A stretch of DNA of 64,000 bases from Allobosea sp. 117 (GTDB taxonomy: Bacteria; Pseudomonadota; Alphaproteobacteria; Rhizobiales; Xanthobacteraceae). Below the pieces are notes generated by a model. It was not told the origin of the DNA and made no database searches. It saw nothing but the letters and a program-made list of their open reading frames with translations. Below, piece after piece: positions 55,503 through 64,000 of this stretch. The DNA is taken from NCBI RefSeq assembly GCF_000702305.1, contig NZ_JNLC01000015.1:234001-298000 (forward strand), read 5' to 3'. The position numbers were made by a program, and so were the translations under genes. Position 1 is the stretch's first letter. Every line of letters begins with the position of its first letter.

Positions 55503-56216
55503 CTACCGACCGTCTTCGACAGCCGGCTCCTCTTCGGACCTGCCGACCCGCTCATAGGCCTCGACCAGATGCCGGCGCATGAGCTCGGCCGCGCCTTCGG
55601 CATCACCGCGGATCATCCCCTCCAATATCCGCCCGTGCTCCTGCCAGACGCTGATCGACATTCCAGGATAGCGCAGCACCTGCCCCATCGCCCGGCGGAG
55701 ATGGCGCCAGTGCAGGCGCATCGTCTCCCCGACGATGGGGTTGCCGGACAGGTCGTAGATGAAGGAATGGAAGTCCATATCGGCCTGAAGGCCGGCCCGG
55801 GCATCACCGGCGACGACCATGTTGCGGCCGTGTTCGATGAGTGAGCGGCCGCGCAGGATGGCCTGCTTGGTCATGCGCGGCGTCGCCAACCTCACGGCAA
55901 GAGGCTCGACGGCCGAGCGAAACTGGTAGATCGCCTCGAAGAAGGCGGCGTCGACCGGGGTCACGACCAGGCCGCGCCGGCCGGACTGGGCGAGGAACCC
56001 CTGTGCCTTCAGCACTACCAGAGCGTGTGTGACCGGCTGCCGGGAGACCTTCAGCCGCGCCGCGATGTCCTCCTGCGTCAGCCGCTCGCCGGGCTTGAAC
56101 GTCCCGTCGCAGAGGGCGTCGAGGATCACCTCATAAGCCTGATCCACCAGGCTTTTTGGCGCTTCCAGAGACTCCAAGCCCGCATCCTCCGCAAGAATCG
56201 TCGTGCTGCGCAGCAC
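55503..56216 (-). CDS. GntR family regulator (FCD type) divergent from the mutase operon
   Basis: A 237-residue regulator: winged helix (AYEVILDALCDGTFKPGERL; EDIAARLKVSRQPVTHALVV) and an FCD domain with likely metal-binding histidines in DFHSFIYDLSGNP and RRHLVEAYERV. It lies 97 bases from the first mutase-operon gene on the opposite strand with a perfect palindrome between, so it is the probable local regulator, responding to a carboxylic acid or CoA ester. Confidence 0.88.
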   Translation of the reverse strand: MLRSTTILAEDAGLESLEAPKSLVDQAYEVILDALCDGTFKPGERLTQEDIAARLKVSRQPVTHALVVLKAQGFLAQSGRRGLVVTPVDAAFFEAIYQFRSAVEPLAVRLATPRMTKQAILRGRSLIEHGRNMVVAGDARAGLQADMDFHSFIYDLSGNPIVGETMRLHWRHLRRAMGQVLRYPGMSISVWQEHGRILEGMIRGDAEGAAELMRRHLVEAYERVGRSEEEPAVEDGR

Positions 56217-56268
56217 TATGGCGGGCGCTTGACAGGGTCACAAGCCGCCTGCACTCTGCATTCCGAGT

Positions 56269-56280
56269 TCTGAATTCAGA
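56269..56280. promoter_or_regulatory. Perfect palindrome in the GntR/mutase divergent region
   Basis: TCTGAATTCAGA, 12 bases, 33 bases before the small-subunit start codon. A TTGACA box (56229-56234) on the plus strand lies 34 bases upstream, so a repressor bound here would sit near the start of transcription. A matching -10 box is not clear. Confidence 0.5.
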
Positions 56281-56313: not shown

Positions 56314-56721
56314 GTGACGCAGCCCATCCGTGTGCTTCTCGCGAAGGTTGGCCTCGACGGCCATGATCGCGGCGTGAAGGTGGTGGCCCGAACCCTGCGC
56401 GACGCCGGAATGGACGTCATCTATTCGGGCCTGCACCGCACGCCCGAGGAGGTCGTGAACGCCGCGATCCAGGAAGACGTGGACGTGCTCGGCGTAAGCC
56501 TGCTTTCCGGCGTCCAGCTCACCGTCTTTCCGAAGATCTTCCAGCTTCTGGCCAGCAAGGGAGCGGAGGACATGATCGTCGTCGCCGGCGGGGTGATGCC
56601 GGACGAGGACGTCGTCGAGATCAAGCGGATGGGGGTGCGGGAAGTCCTACTTCAGGACACGCCGCCGGACGTGATCGTCGAGACGCTCACGCGCCTCGTC
56701 ACCGAACGCGGCGAACGCTGA
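56314..56721 (+). CDS. hcmB: Cobalamin-binding small subunit of an acyl-CoA mutase (HcmB-like)
   Basis: A 135-residue B12-binding domain. The cobalt-ligating motif D-x-H-x-x-G is Asp15-Gly-His17-Asp-Arg-Gly20 (VGLDGHDRGVKVV), with SLLSGVQLTVFP and VVAGGVMPDEDV lining the nucleotide tail. It starts at GTG after AGGGAGG. As a free small subunit it must pair with the large subunit encoded at 59137, as HcmB does with HcmA in 2-hydroxyisobutyryl-CoA mutase. The symbol follows that assignment. Confidence 0.88.
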   Translation: MTQPIRVLLAKVGLDGHDRGVKVVARTLRDAGMDVIYSGLHRTPEEVVNAAIQEDVDVLGVSLLSGVQLTVFPKIFQLLASKGAEDMIVVAGGVMPDEDVVEIKRMGVREVLLQDTPPDVIVETLTRLVTERGER

Positions 56722-56736
56722 GAGGGAGGGCGAGCC

Positions 56737-58167
56737 ATGGAATCCTGGTCCTTCCCGCCCTCATACGACGCCACCTACTTTCCGCCGGCCGATAGCCGCT
56801 ACTGGTTCCCGCAGCGCGAGACCATGCCGCCGGGAGATCGCGAAAAGGCGATACTGGAGCGGCTGCGCGTCGTCTGCCGCTATGCCTACGACCATTCGCC
56901 CTTCTACCGCCGCCGCTGGAACGAGGCTGGTTTCCATCCCGACCAGTTGCGCTCGCTGGAGGATTTCGAGGACAGGGTCCCCGTCATCACCAAGAAGGAA
57001 CTGAGGGACTCGCAGGCGACGTCGCCGCCCTTCGGCGACTATCTGTGCGTCCCCGACGGCGAAATCTTCCACATCCACGGAACCAGCGGCACGACCGGGC
57101 GCCCCACCGCCTTCGCCATCGGCCGCAACGACTGGACCGCCATCGCCAATGCCCATGCCCGCATCATGTGGGCGATGGGCATGCGGCCCGGCGACATGGT
57201 CTGCGTCGCGGCGATCCTCAGCCTCTATATGGGAAGCTGGGGCGCCCTGTCGGGCGCCGAACGCCTCGGCGCCAAGGCGTTCCCGTTCGGCGCCGGCGCT
57301 CCCGGCATGACGATACGCTGCGCGCAATGGCTCGACACCATGAAGCCGGCGGGCTTCTACGGCACGCCCACCTACGCGCTTCATCTCGCCCAGGCCGCCA
57401 AGGACGAAGGCCTCAACCCGCGGGAGTTCGGCCTCAAATACATGTTCTTCTCGGGCGAGCCCGGAGCATCGATTCCCGGCGTGCGCGACCGCATCGCCGA
57501 TCTCTTCGGCGCGAAGGTGTTCGATTCCGGCTCGATGGCCGAGATGACCCCGTGGATGAACGTCGCGGGCTCCGCCGAGACCGAGGGCATGCTCTGCTGG
57601 CAGGACATCGTCTACACTGAGGTCTGCGATCCGGCGACGATGCGGCGCGTCCCCTACGGCCAGCGCGGAACGCCCGTCTACACCCACCTCGAGCGCACCT
57701 CGCAGCCGATGATCCGGCTCGCTTCCGGCGACCTGACGCTCTGGCAGGACGGCCCGAACCCTTGCGGGCGCACCTATCCGCGGCTGCCGCAGGGAATATT
57801 CGGCCGGATCGACGACATGTTCACCATCCGCGGCGAGAACGTCTATCCGAGCGAGATCGACGCCGCGCTCAACCAGACGCCTGGCTATGGCGGCGAGCAT
57901 CAGATCGTCATCACCCGCGAAGCAGCGATGGACGAGCTGCTGCTGCGAGTCGAGGCGGATGACGGCACCTTCGCCAATGGCGAGCTGGAGCGTTTCCGCG
58001 CGGATGTCAGCCACCGCATCCAGAAGCTGCTCGGGCTGCGCACCAAGGCCGAGATCGTCGCCAAGGGAACCCTGCCGCGCACTGACTTCAAAGCACGCCG
58101 CGTCACCGACGACCGCTCCGTCTTTCGGGAGATGTATGCCCAGATCGACGCGGAGAGCGGCGCATGA
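56737..58167 (+). CDS. hcl: Acyl-CoA ligase, PaaK-like (probable 2-hydroxyisobutyrate-CoA ligase)
   Basis: A 476-residue AMP-forming ligase of the phenylacetate-CoA ligase group. The ATP motif reads IHGTSGTTGRPTAF; YGTPTYALHLAQ and FSGEPGASIPGVRDRI follow, then FGRIDDMFTIRGENVYPSEI near the hinge and a C-terminal domain with GTLPRTDFKARR carrying the catalytic lysine. It lies between the two mutase subunit genes, so it should make the mutase substrate from the free acid. In known 2-hydroxyisobutyrate operons a ligase of this type occupies this place; the acid itself is inferred. Confidence 0.85.
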   Translation: MESWSFPPSYDATYFPPADSRYWFPQRETMPPGDREKAILERLRVVCRYAYDHSPFYRRRWNEAGFHPDQLRSLEDFEDRVPVITKKELRDSQATSPPFGDYLCVPDGEIFHIHGTSGTTGRPTAFAIGRNDWTAIANAHARIMWAMGMRPGDMVCVAAILSLYMGSWGALSGAERLGAKAFPFGAGAPGMTIRCAQWLDTMKPAGFYGTPTYALHLAQAAKDEGLNPREFGLKYMFFSGEPGASIPGVRDRIADLFGAKVFDSGSMAEMTPWMNVAGSAETEGMLCWQDIVYTEVCDPATMRRVPYGQRGTPVYTHLERTSQPMIRLASGDLTLWQDGPNPCGRTYPRLPQGIFGRIDDMFTIRGENVYPSEIDAALNQTPGYGGEHQIVITREAAMDELLLRVEADDGTFANGELERFRADVSHRIQKLLGLRTKAEIVAKGTLPRTDFKARRVTDDRSVFREMYAQIDAESGA

Positions 58168-59186
58168 GCCGTTATGTCCCGTCGAGCGAACTGGTTGAGC
58201 GCGCCGCGCGCGGCGAGGTGCCGGCCATCGGCCGTCTGATATCGCGCGCCGAAGCCGGCAGGCCGGAGGCACGGTCGGCCCTCGCGGCGATCTATCGGCG
58301 CGCCGGCCGGGCCCATGTGATCGGCCTGACCGGCGTTCCGGGCAGCGGCAAGTCGACCCTCGTCGCCGCGCTCACGGCGCGCCTGCGCGCGCTGAGCATG
58401 AAGGTCGGGATCGTCGCGGTCGACCCGTCGAGCCCCTATTCCGGCGGTGCCATCCTCGGCGACCGGATCCGCATGTCGGATCTCGTGAACGATCCCGGCG
58501 TCTACATCCGCAGTATGGCGACGCGCGGCGCGATGGGCGGGCTGGCGCGGGCCACGCTCGACGCGGTGGACATCCTCGATCTCGGCGGGTTTGAGACCAT
58601 CATCATCGAGACCGTCGGGGTCGGTCAGGACGAGGTCGAGATCGCCAAGGCCTCGCACACCACCATCGTCGTCTCGGCGCCGGGGCTCGGCGACGAGATC
58701 CAGGCCATCAAGGCCGGCATGCTCGAGATCGCCGACATTCACGTCGTGTCGAAATGCGACCGCAGCGACGCCAACCGCACGCTGGTCGACATCAAGCAGA
58801 TGCTGACGCTGGGCGCGGCGATGTCGAACAGGTCGGAATGGCAGACGCCGGTCATCGGCGTCAGTTCCTACACCGGCGAGGGTTTCGAGGCGCTCGTCCA
58901 CGCGCTCGAACGGCATCGGAACGTGGCGTTCGGCACGGCGAGCGGCAGCCGGCGGCAGCTATCGATCGCAAATTTCCGGCTCGAGAAGACCGCCGAGAAC
59001 CTGCTCGTCGAACGCTTCGTCAAAGCTGCCGCGACGCGCTCACCGGCGCTGGCGGAACGCCTCCAGCGCCGCGATGGAGACCCTTACACGCTGGCCAACG
59101 AACTGCTTGCCGCGTCGCTCGAACAAGGATCGGCCCATGAACGAGACCATCATCGCCCGCCCCATTTCGCAGAAGACCATTGGTGA
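58164..59186 (+). CDS. meaH: MeaB/ArgK-type GTPase chaperone of the mutase (MeaH-like)
   Basis: A 340-residue G3E GTPase that loads and protects the adenosylcobalamin of acyl-CoA mutases. The P-loop is GVPGSGKS (residues 57-64), Walker B and switch regions are VAVDPSSPYSGGAILGDRIR and IIIETVGVGQDEVEIA, and the base-specificity motif is SKCDRSDANR. It overlaps the ligase gene by four bases and runs 50 bases into the mutase large-subunit gene. The name follows the paralogue in 2-hydroxyisobutyryl-CoA mutase operons. Confidence 0.9.
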   Translation: MSRYVPSSELVERAARGEVPAIGRLISRAEAGRPEARSALAAIYRRAGRAHVIGLTGVPGSGKSTLVAALTARLRALSMKVGIVAVDPSSPYSGGAILGDRIRMSDLVNDPGVYIRSMATRGAMGGLARATLDAVDILDLGGFETIIIETVGVGQDEVEIAKASHTTIVVSAPGLGDEIQAIKAGMLEIADIHVVSKCDRSDANRTLVDIKQMLTLGAAMSNRSEWQTPVIGVSSYTGEGFEALVHALERHRNVAFGTASGSRRQLSIANFRLEKTAENLLVERFVKAAATRSPALAERLQRRDGDPYTLANELLAASLEQGSAHERDHHRPPHFAEDHW

Positions 59187-60843
59187 GCTTCGCGCCGAGG
59201 AACGGGACTGGGAGACGAACGAGGTCGCGCAGTTCCTTCGCAAGCAGGCGGAGCGCAGAAGCGACTTCTTCACGCTCGGCGACATTCCGGTCAAGCGCGC
59301 CTACACCGCCGCCGACCTTGCCGACACGCCCGTCGAGGATATCGGCCTGCCCGGCCGCTACCCGTTCACCCGCGGCCCCTACCCCACCATGTACCGCTCG
59401 CGGACCTGGACCATGCGCCAGATCGCCGGGTTCGGGACCGGCGAGGACACCAACAAGCGCTTCAAATATCTGATCGCGCAAGGCCAGACCGGCATCTCGA
59501 CCGACTTCGATATGCCGACCCTGATGGGCTACGATTCCGACCACCCCATGAGCGAAGGCGAGGTCGGACGCGAAGGCGTGGCGATCGACACGCTGGCCGA
59601 CATGGAGGCGCTGTTCGACGGCATCGATCTGGAGAAGATATCCGTCTCCATGACCATCAATCCATCGGCCTGGATCCTGCTCGCGATGTACATCGTGCTC
59701 GCCGAGAAGCGTGGCTACGACCTCAACAAGCTCTCGGGGACGATCCAGGCCGACATCCTCAAGGAATACATGGCGCAGAAGGAATACGTCTTCCCGATCG
59801 AGCCTTCGGTGCGCATCGTCCGGGACTGCATCACCTACTGTGCCCGGAACATGAAGCGGTATAACCCGATCAACATCTCGGGCTACCATATCTCCGAGGC
59901 CGGCTCTTCGCCGCTGCACGAGGCCGCCTTCACCCTCGCCAACCTGATCGTCTATGTCGAGGAGGTCCTCAAGACCGGGATGCAGGTCGACGAGTTCGCC
60001 CCGCGGCTCGCCTTCTTCTTCGTCTGTCAGGCGGACTTCTTCGAGGAGATCGCCAAGTTCCGTGCCTTGCGGCGCTGCTACGCCAAGATCATGAAGGAGC
60101 GCTTCGGGGCGAAGAACCCGGAATCCATGCGCCTGCGCTTCCATTGCCAGACCGCGGCGGCCTCGCTGACCAAGCCGCAATACATGGTGAATGTCGTGCG
60201 CACGGCCATGCAGGCGCTCGCGGCGGTGCTCGGCGGCACGCAGTCGCTGCACACCAATGGCTATGACGAGGCCTTCGCCATCCCCACCGAGGATGCCATG
60301 CGCATGGCGCTGCGCACCCAGCAGGTCATCGCCGAGGAGACCAACGTCACCCAGGTCACCGACCCGCTCGGCGGTTCCTATTACGTCGAGACCCTGACCA
60401 CCGAATATGAGAAGCGCATCTTCGACATCCTGGCCGAGATCGAGGAGCGCGGCGGCACGCTGAAGCTCATCCAGGAGGGCTGGTTCCAGCGGCACATCGC
60501 CGATTTCGCCTATGAGACCGCCCTGCGCAAGCAGTCCGGCGAGAAGCCGGTCATCGGCGTCAACTGCTTCGTCGACGACGCGCCCGACCCGATCATCCAC
60601 ACGCACCCCTATGACCAGACGACGGCCGCCCGCCAGATCGCCCGGACCCAGCGCGTGCGCCGCGAGCGCGACCCGGTGAAGTTCGACCTGCTTCTGCAGC
60701 AGCTCGTCGAGACGGCCAAGGACCCCTCGCAGAACATCATGCCGGTCACGATCGAGCTGGTCCGCGCCGGCGCGACGATGGGGGACATCATCGAGACGCT
60801 GAAGGGCGTGTGGGGCACCTACCGCGAAACACCGGTGTTCTGA
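59137..60843 (+). CDS. hcmA: Acyl-CoA mutase large subunit, 2-hydroxyisobutyryl-CoA mutase type (HcmA)
   Basis: A 568-residue TIM-barrel subunit of a B12-dependent mutase; the B12 domain is separate. Blocks are [78 protein letters not shown] and [11 protein letters not shown]. Ile96 replaces the tyrosine (Tyr89) of methylmalonyl-CoA mutase and Asp123 replaces an alanine. The pair, 27 residues apart, matches Ile90 and Asp117 of 2-hydroxyisobutyryl-CoA mutase, which isomerises 2-hydroxyisobutyryl-CoA and 3-hydroxybutyryl-CoA. The ATG at 59137 has AAGGA seven bases upstream. Many programs would call it methylmalonyl-CoA mutase. Confidence 0.88.
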
Positions 60844-60851
60844 GCGGCCCC

Positions 60852-61958
60852 ATGGCGAGCGAAGTTCTGCCTCAGGTCGTCCCGTTCGTCCTGCCCTTCG
60901 ACGGAACCTGGCCGCAATTCCTCACCGAGCCTCGGCTTTGCGGCGCCGACGCGAGCGTTCTCGGCAAGGTGCGGCTCGGTGCGCGAGCCTCGCTCGGCGC
61001 CGGAACGGTCATTCGCGGCGACGGGCATTTCGTCCGGATCGGGGACGATTTTCATCTCGGCGAGATGTCGACCGTTCATATCGCCCACGACGTCTATCCC
61101 GCGATCGTCGGCGACAGGGTAGCGGTGGGGCGCGACGCCGTCGTCCATGCCTGCACGGTTGGCAATGACTGCGTGATCGAGGACGGGGTGGTCATCCTCG
61201 ACGGATCAGTGGTGGAGGATGGCGTCCTGATCGAGGCCCGCTCCACCGTCTTTCCGCGCTCGACACTGAAGAGCGGCTTCGCCTATTCCGGAAGCCCGGC
61301 CAAGCCGATCCGGGAACTGGCGCCGGGCGAGCTGGAGCAGCGGGCGCAACTCCTCCATGAAGCCGTGGCCGCATCCCTGTTCGCGACCACCGCCGACGCG
61401 GCGCCCGACACCGGCAGATTCCCTGCCGACGCCTTCGTCGCGACGACCGCCCGCCTCGTCGGAGCGATCGAACTGGGCGCGTGCGCCAGCGTGTTCTTCG
61501 GATGCCGGCTGGATGCCGCCCTCGCCCCGATCACCATCGGCGAGAACTCCAACGTCCAGGACAATACCCGCATCGATGCCTCCGAAGGTGCCGTCATAAT
61601 CGGTCCGGACACCACGATCGGTCACAACGTGCATATACGGGCGGGCCGCATCGGGGCACATGCGCTGATCGGCATCGGCGCCGATCTCGGAGCCGGCACC
61701 ATCGTCGACGACGACGTGCTGCTCGCCGCCGGCTCCGTCACCACCCCGCGACAGCATCTCGAAGGCGGCTGGCTCTGGGGCGGGCGTCCCGCGCGGCCGA
61801 TCGCGCGGCTCGACGAGAACCGTCGCGCCGCCATGCGGGACATCATCCGTCACTACCGCGCCTACGGGGCGGCGTACCGCGCCGCGCAGGATCGCCCGGC
61901 AGGACAGGGAGGATCGAATGGGACATCGCCTATCGCGGATCGTCACCCGCACCGGTGA
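60852..61958 (+). CDS. Tandem gamma-carbonic-anhydrase-like (left-handed beta-helix) protein
   Basis: A 368-residue protein made of two left-handed beta-helix units. The first (about residues 20-155) has the gamma-CA-like HIAHDVYPAIVGDRVAVGRD and VVHACTVGNDCVIEDG with histidines near the usual zinc positions. The second (about 205-330) has GENSNVQDNTRIDASEGAVI and TTIGHNVHIRAGRIGAHALI with fewer histidines. Single-domain members have about 175-200 residues, so this is a fused duplication. It lies nine bases after the mutase large subunit and overlaps the adenosyltransferase gene by 41 bases. Its role in the operon is unknown; carbonic anhydrase or acyltransferase activity are both possible. 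Confidence 0.8.
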   Translation: MASEVLPQVVPFVLPFDGTWPQFLTEPRLCGADASVLGKVRLGARASLGAGTVIRGDGHFVRIGDDFHLGEMSTVHIAHDVYPAIVGDRVAVGRDAVVHACTVGNDCVIEDGVVILDGSVVEDGVLIEARSTVFPRSTLKSGFAYSGSPAKPIRELAPGELEQRAQLLHEAVAASLFATTADAAPDTGRFPADAFVATTARLVGAIELGACASVFFGCRLDAALAPITIGENSNVQDNTRIDASEGAVIIGPDTTIGHNVHIRAGRIGAHALIGIGADLGAGTIVDDDVLLAAGSVTTPRQHLEGGWLWGGRPARPIARLDENRRAAMRDIIRHYRAYGAAYRAAQDRPAGQGGSNGTSPIADRHPHR

Positions 61959-62529
61959 TCGGGGTCAGACCGGCCTCGGCTCCGGCCTGAGGGTCGACAA
62001 GGACAGCCCTCCGATCGAGACGCTCGGCGCCATCGACGAGCTGAACAGTTGGATCGGCCTTCTGGTCGCGCTGTCGAGCTCGGAGGACACGCGGGAGGTC
62101 TTCACGCTGGTGCAGCACGATCTCTTCGATCTTGGCGCGCAGATCAGCGTGCCCGGAACCCCGCTCCTGTCGCGCGCCCACCTGTCGCGCATCGAGGCGA
62201 GCTTCGAGCGGATGAATGCCGAGCTCGGCACGCTGAAGGAATTCATCCTGCCCGGCGGCGCACCGTCCTCCGCCTTCGCACATGTCGCCCGCACCGTGTG
62301 CCGGCGGGCCGAGCGGCGCCTGTTCAGCCTCACCCAGCTCGAAGACGGCGCCGACGGATTGGCGCCTCCCGTCGGCGGGGAGCCCCCGGACGAGGACTTC
62401 GGCCTCGCCTATCTCAACCGGCTTTCCGATCTCCTGTTCGTCGCGTCGCGGATCGAGAATCGCGCGGACGGCCGGCCCGACGTCCTGTGGGAACGAGGCA
62501 AGAGCCTCGGCAGCGGGGTCACGGCCTGA
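61918..62529 (+). CDS. PduO-type cob(I)alamin adenosyltransferase
   Basis: A 203-residue ATP:corrinoid adenosyltransferase. The ATP-binding motif TRTGDRGQTGLGSGLRVDKD lies at residues 10-29; other blocks are IDELNSWIGLLVAL, FILPGGAPSSAFAHVARTVC, then RRAERRLFSL and YLNRLSDLLFVASRIEN. It makes adenosylcobalamin for the mutase encoded in the same operon. The start lies 41 bases inside the preceding gene, so translation is coupled. No cobalamin riboswitch is visible upstream of the operon. Confidence 0.92.
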   Translation: MGHRLSRIVTRTGDRGQTGLGSGLRVDKDSPPIETLGAIDELNSWIGLLVALSSSEDTREVFTLVQHDLFDLGAQISVPGTPLLSRAHLSRIEASFERMNAELGTLKEFILPGGAPSSAFAHVARTVCRRAERRLFSLTQLEDGADGLAPPVGGEPPDEDFGLAYLNRLSDLLFVASRIENRADGRPDVLWERGKSLGSGVTA

Positions 62530-62946
62530 ACGCTCGAGCTATTCGCCCAGGGGTGCACCTGTGTCCCCCAGTTCTACACGCTACCGCCGGCGATCCTGAG
62601 CAACGCGGCAGCGGCGATGGGTCTGGCGGTGGCGAACTCCGTCGGCAGCGTCGCAGGCTTCATCAGCCCCTATCTGCTCGGCTGGATCAAAGATCTGACC
62701 GGAAGCACCAATGCCGGGGTGATCGTATTGGCAGGCAACCTTCTCGTCGGCGCGCTGCTCGTATTCGCAAATCCCGCCCGACTGGTGAACCGTTTGCCGC
62801 GATCGGCCAAGCGCCTGTTCCGCTCCGGCACCGCTGGTCTCCGTTCGGGATCCTGGCGAAGCCTTACCGGATTACTCTTCGAATCGCGGCTTGAATGCAA
62901 ACTGCACTCCAGGCTCGCCGCCGCCCTGTATATCGCCAGGAACTGA
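62530..62946 (+). pseudogene. C-terminal remnant of an MFS transporter (ACS family)
   Basis: Directly after the adenosyltransferase stop, one open frame (no start codon near its beginning) reads FAQGCTCVPQFYTLPPAIL, then SNAAAAMGLAVANSVGSVAG and FISPYLLGWIKDLTGSTNAG, the last two membrane segments and tail of an anion:cation symporter family MFS transporter. The first ten or so segments are absent. After about residue 90 the frame continues without recognisable homology to the stop at 62946. This is a truncated, non-functional relic and probably marks a deletion or insertion joint. Confidence 0.75.
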
Positions 62947-62981: not shown

Positions 62982-63038
62982 TGACGTGATTTTGGGCATA
63001 TGTAAAGCTTTTCACGCGTGAGGTGGAGAGCGAAAACG

Positions 63039-63587
63039 ATGCAGTTGTTCATGCGGGCGGTTGATCACCTCAATCGGGTGCTGCGCCATCTGGTCGGCGC
63101 CATGCTCGGGGTCATGGTTGTCGTCGTCGCGACCCAGATCGTGGTGCGCTTCGTGTTGCCACCGCTCGGAATCAACGCCTCGGCGCCCTGGTCGGAAGAA
63201 CTGGCGCGCTATCTGATGATCTGGTGCATCTTCATCGGGGCGGCCGTCGCGGCCCGGGCGGGCGATCTGATCGCCGTGGAAACGCTCCCCGACGCACTGC
63301 CCGCGCGCTGGAGCCTTGTCGTCCGGAATGCGGCGCTGATCACGACCGTCGGCTTCCTCGTGGCCCTCATCTGGCTCGGTCTGCGCTGGGTCGAGTTCGG
63401 CGCGGGCGAGACCTCGACCGTGATGAACCTGCCGATGTCCTGGGTGTATGCGGCGCTGCCGATCGGCTCCGGCTTCGCCATCGTCAACCTCGTCGCCCGC
63501 TTCCTCGATCTCAACTTCGATGCCGCGCGCCGGCGCGCACTGATGCGTCACGCGCCATCCGTCACGGAAGGCGACGCACTCGTCTAG
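63039..63587 (+). CDS. TRAP transporter small permease (DctQ type)
   Basis: A 182-residue four-helix membrane protein. LVGAMLGVMVVVVATQIVVR, then WSEELARYLMIWCIFIGAAV and the pattern MNLPMSWVYAALPIGSGFA are typical DctQ features. The ATG at 63039, with GGTGGAGAG upstream, is preferred to the GTG at 63018. It pairs with the large permease that follows. The periplasmic binding protein (DctP type) is not upstream and may lie beyond the window. Likely import of an organic acid for the mutase pathway, by position only. Confidence 0.85.
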   Translation: MQLFMRAVDHLNRVLRHLVGAMLGVMVVVVATQIVVRFVLPPLGINASAPWSEELARYLMIWCIFIGAAVAARAGDLIAVETLPDALPARWSLVVRNAALITTVGFLVALIWLGLRWVEFGAGETSTVMNLPMSWVYAALPIGSGFAIVNLVARFLDLNFDAARRRALMRHAPSVTEGDALV

Positions 63588-63644
63588 CGCCCTTCGGCCT
63601 CGCTCGAACCGGATACGAACTCCAATGCCGAAGGGATTGCGGGC

Positions 63645-64000
63645 ATGCTGATGTCAGCGACCATGGCGGTGACGCTCGCGCTGAGCGTTCCGATCTTCGT
63701 CGTCATGGGCCTTTGCGCGGTCGTCATGCTGCGAAGCCGGGGCATCGACCTGATAAGCGTGCCCCAGAACGTTTTCGAGGCACTGGATTCCTTTGCGCTC
63801 ATGGCGGTGCCGTTCTACGTGCTCGCCGGCAATCTGATGAAGACCGGGGGCATCTCGAGGCGCCTGATCGCTCTGGCCATCGCTCTGGTCGGCTGGATCA
63901 GAGGCGGCGTCGGCGCCGCCTCCGTACTGACCTGCATGTTCTTCTCGACCATGTCCGGCTCGTCCTCGGCGACCACCGCGGCGGTTGGCGGAACCATGAT
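63645..64000 (+). CDS. TRAP transporter large permease (DctM type), 5' part only
   Basis: The first 118 codons of a DctM-family permease running off the window edge, so it is longer than shown. ATG at 63645; membrane segments include MAVTLALSVPIFVVMGLCAV, and family blocks are SFALMAVPFYVLAGNLMKTG and FFSTMSGSSSATTAAVGGTM, the classic TRAP large-subunit motif. It starts 57 bases after the small permease. Confidence 0.9.
   Translation, partial: MLMSATMAVTLALSVPIFVVMGLCAVVMLRSRGIDLISVPQNVFEALDSFALMAVPFYVLAGNLMKTGGISRRLIALAIALVGWIRGGVGAASVLTCMFFSTMSGSSSATTAAVGGTM

Follow-up and report, generated by a model that had tools for sequence, protein, structure and literature searches.

A new host for an HcmAB-type operon, probably for 2-hydroxyisobutyrate catabolism, in Allobosea sp. 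117

Introduction

The closest described systems are those of fuel-ether degraders, in which 2-hydroxyisobutyrate is processed by a coenzyme A (CoA) ligase, Hcl, and a cobalamin-dependent mutase, HcmAB. According to the published account, Hcl and HcmAB convert 2-hydroxyisobutyrate into (S)-3-hydroxybutyryl-CoA, and hcl, the mutase genes and meaH show an operon-like organization, usually together with a GntR gene (PMC7176365). We have analyzed a stretch of 64,000 nucleotides from Allobosea sp. 117 (contig NZ_JNLC01000015.1, positions 234,001 to 298,000 of the forward strand; hereafter the window, from whose first letter all coordinates are counted) which carries six genes of this kind, all on the plus strand, between 56314 and 62529. 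The gene set given there matches the one found here and the core is therefore already known; the locus is a well-supported example of this system in a further host.

An initial annotation of this DNA had proposed the order small subunit, ligase, GTPase, mutase, beta-helix protein and PduO, and the coordinates as well as the NCBIfam and Pfam profile matches agree with these names. A divergent GntR gene, missing from that annotation, accompanies the operon, and the two form a bounded 7-kb block of seven genes. We assign a probability of about 0.93 to the reading of this locus as an HcmAB-type operon for 2-hydroxyisobutyrate catabolism, on the strength of sequence comparisons. Its predicted genes are the following.

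55503..56216, minus strand: GntR/FCD-family regulator, divergent from the operon (Pfam FCD 8.9e-29, GntR 8.3e-12)
56314..56721, plus strand: hcmB, B12-binding small subunit, with the DGHDRG (DxHxxG) motif (top PDB match 4R3U_C, 4.6e-65)
56737..58167, plus strand: hcl, 2-hydroxyisobutyrate-CoA ligase (top PDB match 6HDW, 1.3e-255, 852 bits)
58164..59186, plus strand: meaH, MeaB-type GTPase, mutase chaperone (TIGR00750, 300 bits for a cut-off of 240.75)
59137..60843, plus strand: hcmA, large subunit of 2-hydroxyisobutyryl-CoA mutase, 568 residues (top PDB match 4R3U_A, 1052 bits; Ile96 and Asp123; tree)
60852..61958 (ATG at 60852), plus strand: tandem gamma-carbonic-anhydrase-like left-handed beta-helix protein (alignments to gamma-carbonic anhydrase structures; half 1 with His76 and His99, half 2 with His258)
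61918..62529, plus strand: PduO-type cob(I)alamin adenosyltransferase (TIGR00636, 168.2 bits for a cut-off of 108.45)

From hcmB to PduO the genes are separated by 15, −4, −50, 8 and −41 bases, a close spacing with overlaps that makes co-transcription of the six genes likely. The 50-base overlap between meaH and hcmA is annotated in the same way in Agrobacterium deltaense.

Identity of the mutase and of its ligase

Three proteins of the operon find crystallized counterparts as their top PDB matches. For the large subunit this is HcmA (4R3U_A, over residues 16-568), the next structures being methylmalonyl-CoA mutases at 462 bits and lower; for the small subunit it is 4R3U_C, and for the ligase the 2-hydroxyisobutyryl-CoA synthetase 6HDW, followed by phenylacetate ligases at 226 bits and lower. 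As each of these separate proteins matches its own counterpart, the three together indicate one pathway and, with the published gene set, they bear out the mutase type that had been proposed initially. The crystallized mutase and ligase presumably stem from Aquincola tertiaricarbonis L108. The locus shares with the HcmAB/Hcl/MeaH pathway of strain L108 and Methylibium petroleiphilum PM1 its core genes, their order and the divergent GntR gene, and its large subunit is 81.9% identical to that of PM1.

Regarding the active site, Ile96 and Asp123 of the large subunit stand exactly as first noted, 27 residues apart in two motifs that begin at residues 91 and 119. In an ungapped part of the alignment with 4R3U_A they correspond to residues 101 and 128 of the chain, at a constant offset of 11 from Ile90 and Asp117, which we take, in numbering and in role, to be the substrate positions of 2-hydroxyisobutyryl-CoA mutase.

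In favor of a methylmalonyl-CoA or ethylmalonyl-CoA mutase, the records of relatives in M. petroleiphilum PM1, A. deltaense and Xanthobacter Py2 carry the label 'methylmalonyl-CoA mutase' or name that family, and the large subunit of the window itself matches Pfam MM_CoA_mutase and TIGR00641. Protein family, B12 domain and MeaB-type partner are indeed common to both enzymes. However, the large subunit reaches only 589 bits against PRK09426, the methylmalonyl-CoA mutase model, whose cut-off is 876, and the methylmalonyl-CoA mutase structures score less than half the bits of HcmA. Moreover, methylmalonyl-CoA mutase has Tyr and Ala at the two positions, as the initial annotation had stated: this pair is seen in the mitochondrial enzyme (2XIJ) and in two paralogues of the same genome, L001 and L003. 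Four genes of this genome, that of the window included, match MM_CoA_mutase; in the remaining paralogue, L004, the match starts after the two positions and the residues are not readable.

The same distinction was obtained with a quick maximum-likelihood tree of 95 mutase rows (window included, 93 different), from which re-fetched loci of the same genome and genus and matches of fewer than 400 columns were omitted. In this tree, supported by the Shimodaira-Hasegawa-like approximate likelihood ratio test only, the mutase of the window groups with Ile/Asp relatives, in a supported six-row set with genomes of the same genus, and apart from L001 and L003. It is hence not placed inside the methylmalonyl-CoA mutases, a position that the initial annotation had named as contrary to its proposal, though the outgroup branches of this quick tree are long. 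One row of the six-row set, G306, shares its HcmA stretch with the Ancylobacter moscoviensis record L006. Over the 95 rows the two positions read Ile/Asp in 89, Val/Asp in three, Tyr/Ala in two (L001 and L003) and Phe/Ala in one. On the PDB ranking, the PRK09426 cut-off, the Ile/Asp pair and the tree we reject the methylmalonyl-CoA mutase reading, whose probability we put next to nil.

Two further alternatives concern the substrate. An RcmAB-type (R)-mutase, as in Kyrpidia, is argued against by the closeness to HcmA, the one of the two references that was compared. The natural substrate might also be another 2-hydroxy-2-methyl (or related tertiary) acid, 2-hydroxyisobutyryl-CoA being secondary; with a mutase and a ligase so near to the crystallized 2-hydroxyisobutyryl-CoA mutase and ligase, we regard this as unlikely and retain 2-hydroxyisobutyrate as the probable substrate.

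A sister clade in the tree (L088, L120 and L109) reads Val/Asp instead of Ile/Asp. Its members in Sinorhizobium and Shinella are accompanied by an aminotransferase and an enoyl-CoA hydratase as well as by a different AMP-binding protein, which suggests that the mutases of this clade may act on another substrate.

Gene neighborhood and distribution

Among 329 hcm-related loci we considered the best 80, 47 of which are flanked by 5 kb or more on either side, and genes were counted up to 10 kb per side (G306 and L006 appear to be one record, as do G319 and L005, and each was counted once as host). Homologues of hcmB, hcl and meaH occur in all 47 well-flanked loci, in keeping with the initial statement that these genes accompany the mutase. 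A GntR homologue is found in 37 of them, and the tandem beta-helix gene lies near hcmA in 28. Less common are a 2-hydroxyacyl-CoA lyase homologue with an identity of 45% or higher, present in 19 (26 of the 80 loci overall), a PduO homologue, in 13, a 3-hydroxybutyryl-CoA dehydrogenase, in seven, and an MFS transporter, in four. The order of the core is the same on plasmids typed conjugative from M. petroleiphilum PM1, A. deltaense and Xanthobacter autotrophicus Py2. The genes for the beta-helix protein and the adenosyltransferase directly follow the core in A. deltaense and Py2, and come after other genes in PM1.

Within the genus, HcmA (E <= 1e-200) is present in 4 of 30 genomes, the host of the window included. 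The DNA common to the three other carriers extends from 55544 to about 62530 of the window (ends at 62529, 62532 and 62541) with 90-91% identity, which corresponds to nearly the whole GntR gene through the PduO stop codon; the left flank, from 54000 to about 55370, has matches elsewhere in these three genomes at 80-81%. Such a bounded common block, with a flank matching elsewhere, fits a 7-kb module that may move or be lost as a unit. The pathway is presented here as a compact, patchily distributed block, and a new host is added to a system for which the public records cited above still read 'methylmalonyl-CoA mutase'.

The tail of the operon may be eroding, as judged from 3-hydroxybutyryl-CoA dehydrogenase fragments located after PduO. 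These were seen in A. deltaense (L086:13693-13875, 61 residues) and, in two pieces, at L009:8855-9594; the gene is complete in L008.

Proposed pathway and origin of the substrate

In the proposed pathway, Hcl would convert 2-hydroxyisobutyrate into its CoA thioester, and HcmA and HcmB, with adenosylcobalamin, would catalyze a radical shift of the CoA-carbonyl group to give 3-hydroxybutyryl-CoA, expected to be the (S) form as for HcmAB. MeaH would protect and reload the mutase, PduO would supply adenosylcobalamin, the GntR protein would govern the divergent promoter, and a dehydrogenase encoded elsewhere would oxidize 3-hydroxybutyryl-CoA. The genome contains a homologue (51%) of 3-hydroxybutyryl-CoA dehydrogenase and the cobalamin genes CobS and CobT. 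We infer each of these reactions, their regulation and the resulting growth; growth of the host on 2-hydroxyisobutyrate is likely.

Several points weigh against assigning the operon to 2-hydroxyisobutyrate. A haloarchaeal mutase, L122, about 51% identical, also has Ile/Asp and lies on a long branch outside the main clade; the residue pair alone is therefore no proof of function. The 3-hydroxybutyryl-CoA dehydrogenase is encoded outside the operon, the transporter adjoining PduO is a relic, and the (S) stereochemistry would follow by homology only. Finally, no supply route was found in this genome, which is 97.7% complete, since the Rieske oxygenase of PM1 has just a match of 32% over 166 of its 487 residues and the PM1 lyase has matches of 25-33% (the best 31% identical, 194 bits). 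The Rieske oxygenase, encoded near the hcm cluster of PM1, is presumably the tert-butanol hydroxylase. Compared with the L108/PM1 pathway, the locus thus differs in the absence of an adjacent lyase, in a genome without a close Rieske oxygenase relative, in the position of the dehydrogenase and in a transporter reduced to a relic.

For this genome, a route from ethers or tert-butanol, which the initial annotation had considered as the origin of 2-hydroxyisobutyrate, is consequently not supported and was rejected, since nothing closely related to the Rieske protein of PM1 turned up; a lyase partner was likewise rejected, on the 25-33% matches. As neither close relative was found, it is simplest to assume that 2-hydroxyisobutyrate itself is taken up, and the lack of an ether-degradation oxygenase among the genes found fits a natural source of this acid.

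The operon could also work with a 2-hydroxyacyl-CoA lyase located elsewhere in the cell, assimilating or releasing acetone and formyl-CoA. This proposal draws on the lyase of the PM1 hcm cluster, which exceeds the NF058623 cut-off, and on the homologues near hcmA in 19 of the 47 well-flanked loci; against it, the operon of the window has no lyase gene and the best match in the genome is the 31% one given above, so that we consider it very unlikely here and retain the pathway through Hcl and HcmAB. The PM1 lyase itself (L085:22580-24340) scores 742 bits for a cut-off of 600 and has 7PT1 as its top PDB match. In such sister clusters, lyase and mutase together could connect acetone and formyl-CoA with 3-hydroxybutyryl-CoA.

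A tandem beta-helix partner

The beta-helix protein is less described than the core and, with the lyase of the sister clusters, constitutes a testable loose end. In the literature searched, we found nothing on a beta-helix or adenosyltransferase partner, on a tandem gamma carbonic anhydrase, on the PM1 lyase or on tert-butyl alcohol in Ancylobacter. Like gamma-class carbonic anhydrases and PaaY, the protein is a left-handed beta-helix in which each zinc-ligand position is occupied by His once per chain. Unlike them, it consists of two tandem helices with the ligands split 2+1 (the first half carrying His76 and His99 and the second His258, from alignments to gamma-carbonic anhydrase structures), and it scores under the NF050158 and PaaY cut-offs. 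Its model has a predicted local distance difference test (pLDDT) score of 91.2. Compared with 3C8V from Desulfovibrio desulfuricans G20, a structure listed only as a putative acetyltransferase, the identity is 17%.

The three His residues are present in all 39 rows of alignment A1 and in 42, 42 and 43 of the 43 rows of a wider set, which comprises the window and 42 loci (48 matching loci minus six with an inner stop or fewer than 280 residues). The sole exception, the distantly related copy L084, shows Phe and Asp instead. Alignment A1 omits L084 as well as L074, L075 and L082, which are possibly cut and keep the three His; alignment A3 (36 rows) additionally omits L085-L087.

The idea of a partner exclusive to hcm was rejected, because among the 13 positive genomes (out of 297 of the order, the host included) 10 carry a copy without nearby hcm. 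For seven of these 10 copies, no shared neighbor theme was found (10 proteins, NCBIfam, 1e-10). Of the 11 genomes that encode an hcm-like mutase, 3 have the protein, as against 10 of the remaining 286 (Fisher p 0.009), in a test whose genomes are not independent and in which the three lowest-scoring of the 11 mutases may not be HcmA. Loci L100, L102-L108, L110 and L111, from genomes of the order, encode tandem gamma-carbonic-anhydrase-like proteins in which the His residues are split in the same way, with no hcm genes within the 16 kb examined.

By a weak inference, the beta-helix protein would most likely be a zinc enzyme whose site lies where the two halves meet, and one may guess at a PaaY-like CoA-thioesterase or a hydratase recovering CoA. 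It is possible, though we hold it as a tentative proposal, that the protein represents an undescribed part of the 2-hydroxyisobutyrate pathway, with one interface zinc site per chain (His76, His99 and His258) acting on a CoA ester or on CO2/formyl species, in a split-site family also used outside hcm clusters.

Flanking genes and upstream region

Three further features lie around the genes listed above.

62557..62793, plus strand: MFS transporter relic, the last 79 residues (aligned at 84.8% with A. deltaense residues 357-435)
56229-56234, plus strand: putative -35 element TTGACA (unchanged in all seven upstream regions aligned)
56268-56280, plus strand: candidate palindromic operator TTCTGAATTCAGA

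The MFS transporter is complete near hcm in A. deltaense, and homologues with at least 40% identity are found in 6 of the 80 loci. Directly downstream, TRAP transporter genes (DctQ and the start of DctM, 63018-64000) run off the edge of the window; they were excluded from the system because neither has a match at 1e-8 in the 80 hcm loci (L005-L084).

For the window alone, 10 of 100 shuffled sequences gave at least the two hits of TTCTGAATTCAGA that it contains (one palindrome read on both strands), which is within chance; the consensus promoter scan gave no hit (shuffle mean 0.8) and terminators were not above shuffles. The case for an operator hence depends on position and conservation: lying between the divergent genes, the palindrome recurs exactly in 9 of 122 loci, corresponding to seven genomes with that of Allobosea sp. 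117 included, and is a candidate operator for the GntR regulator.

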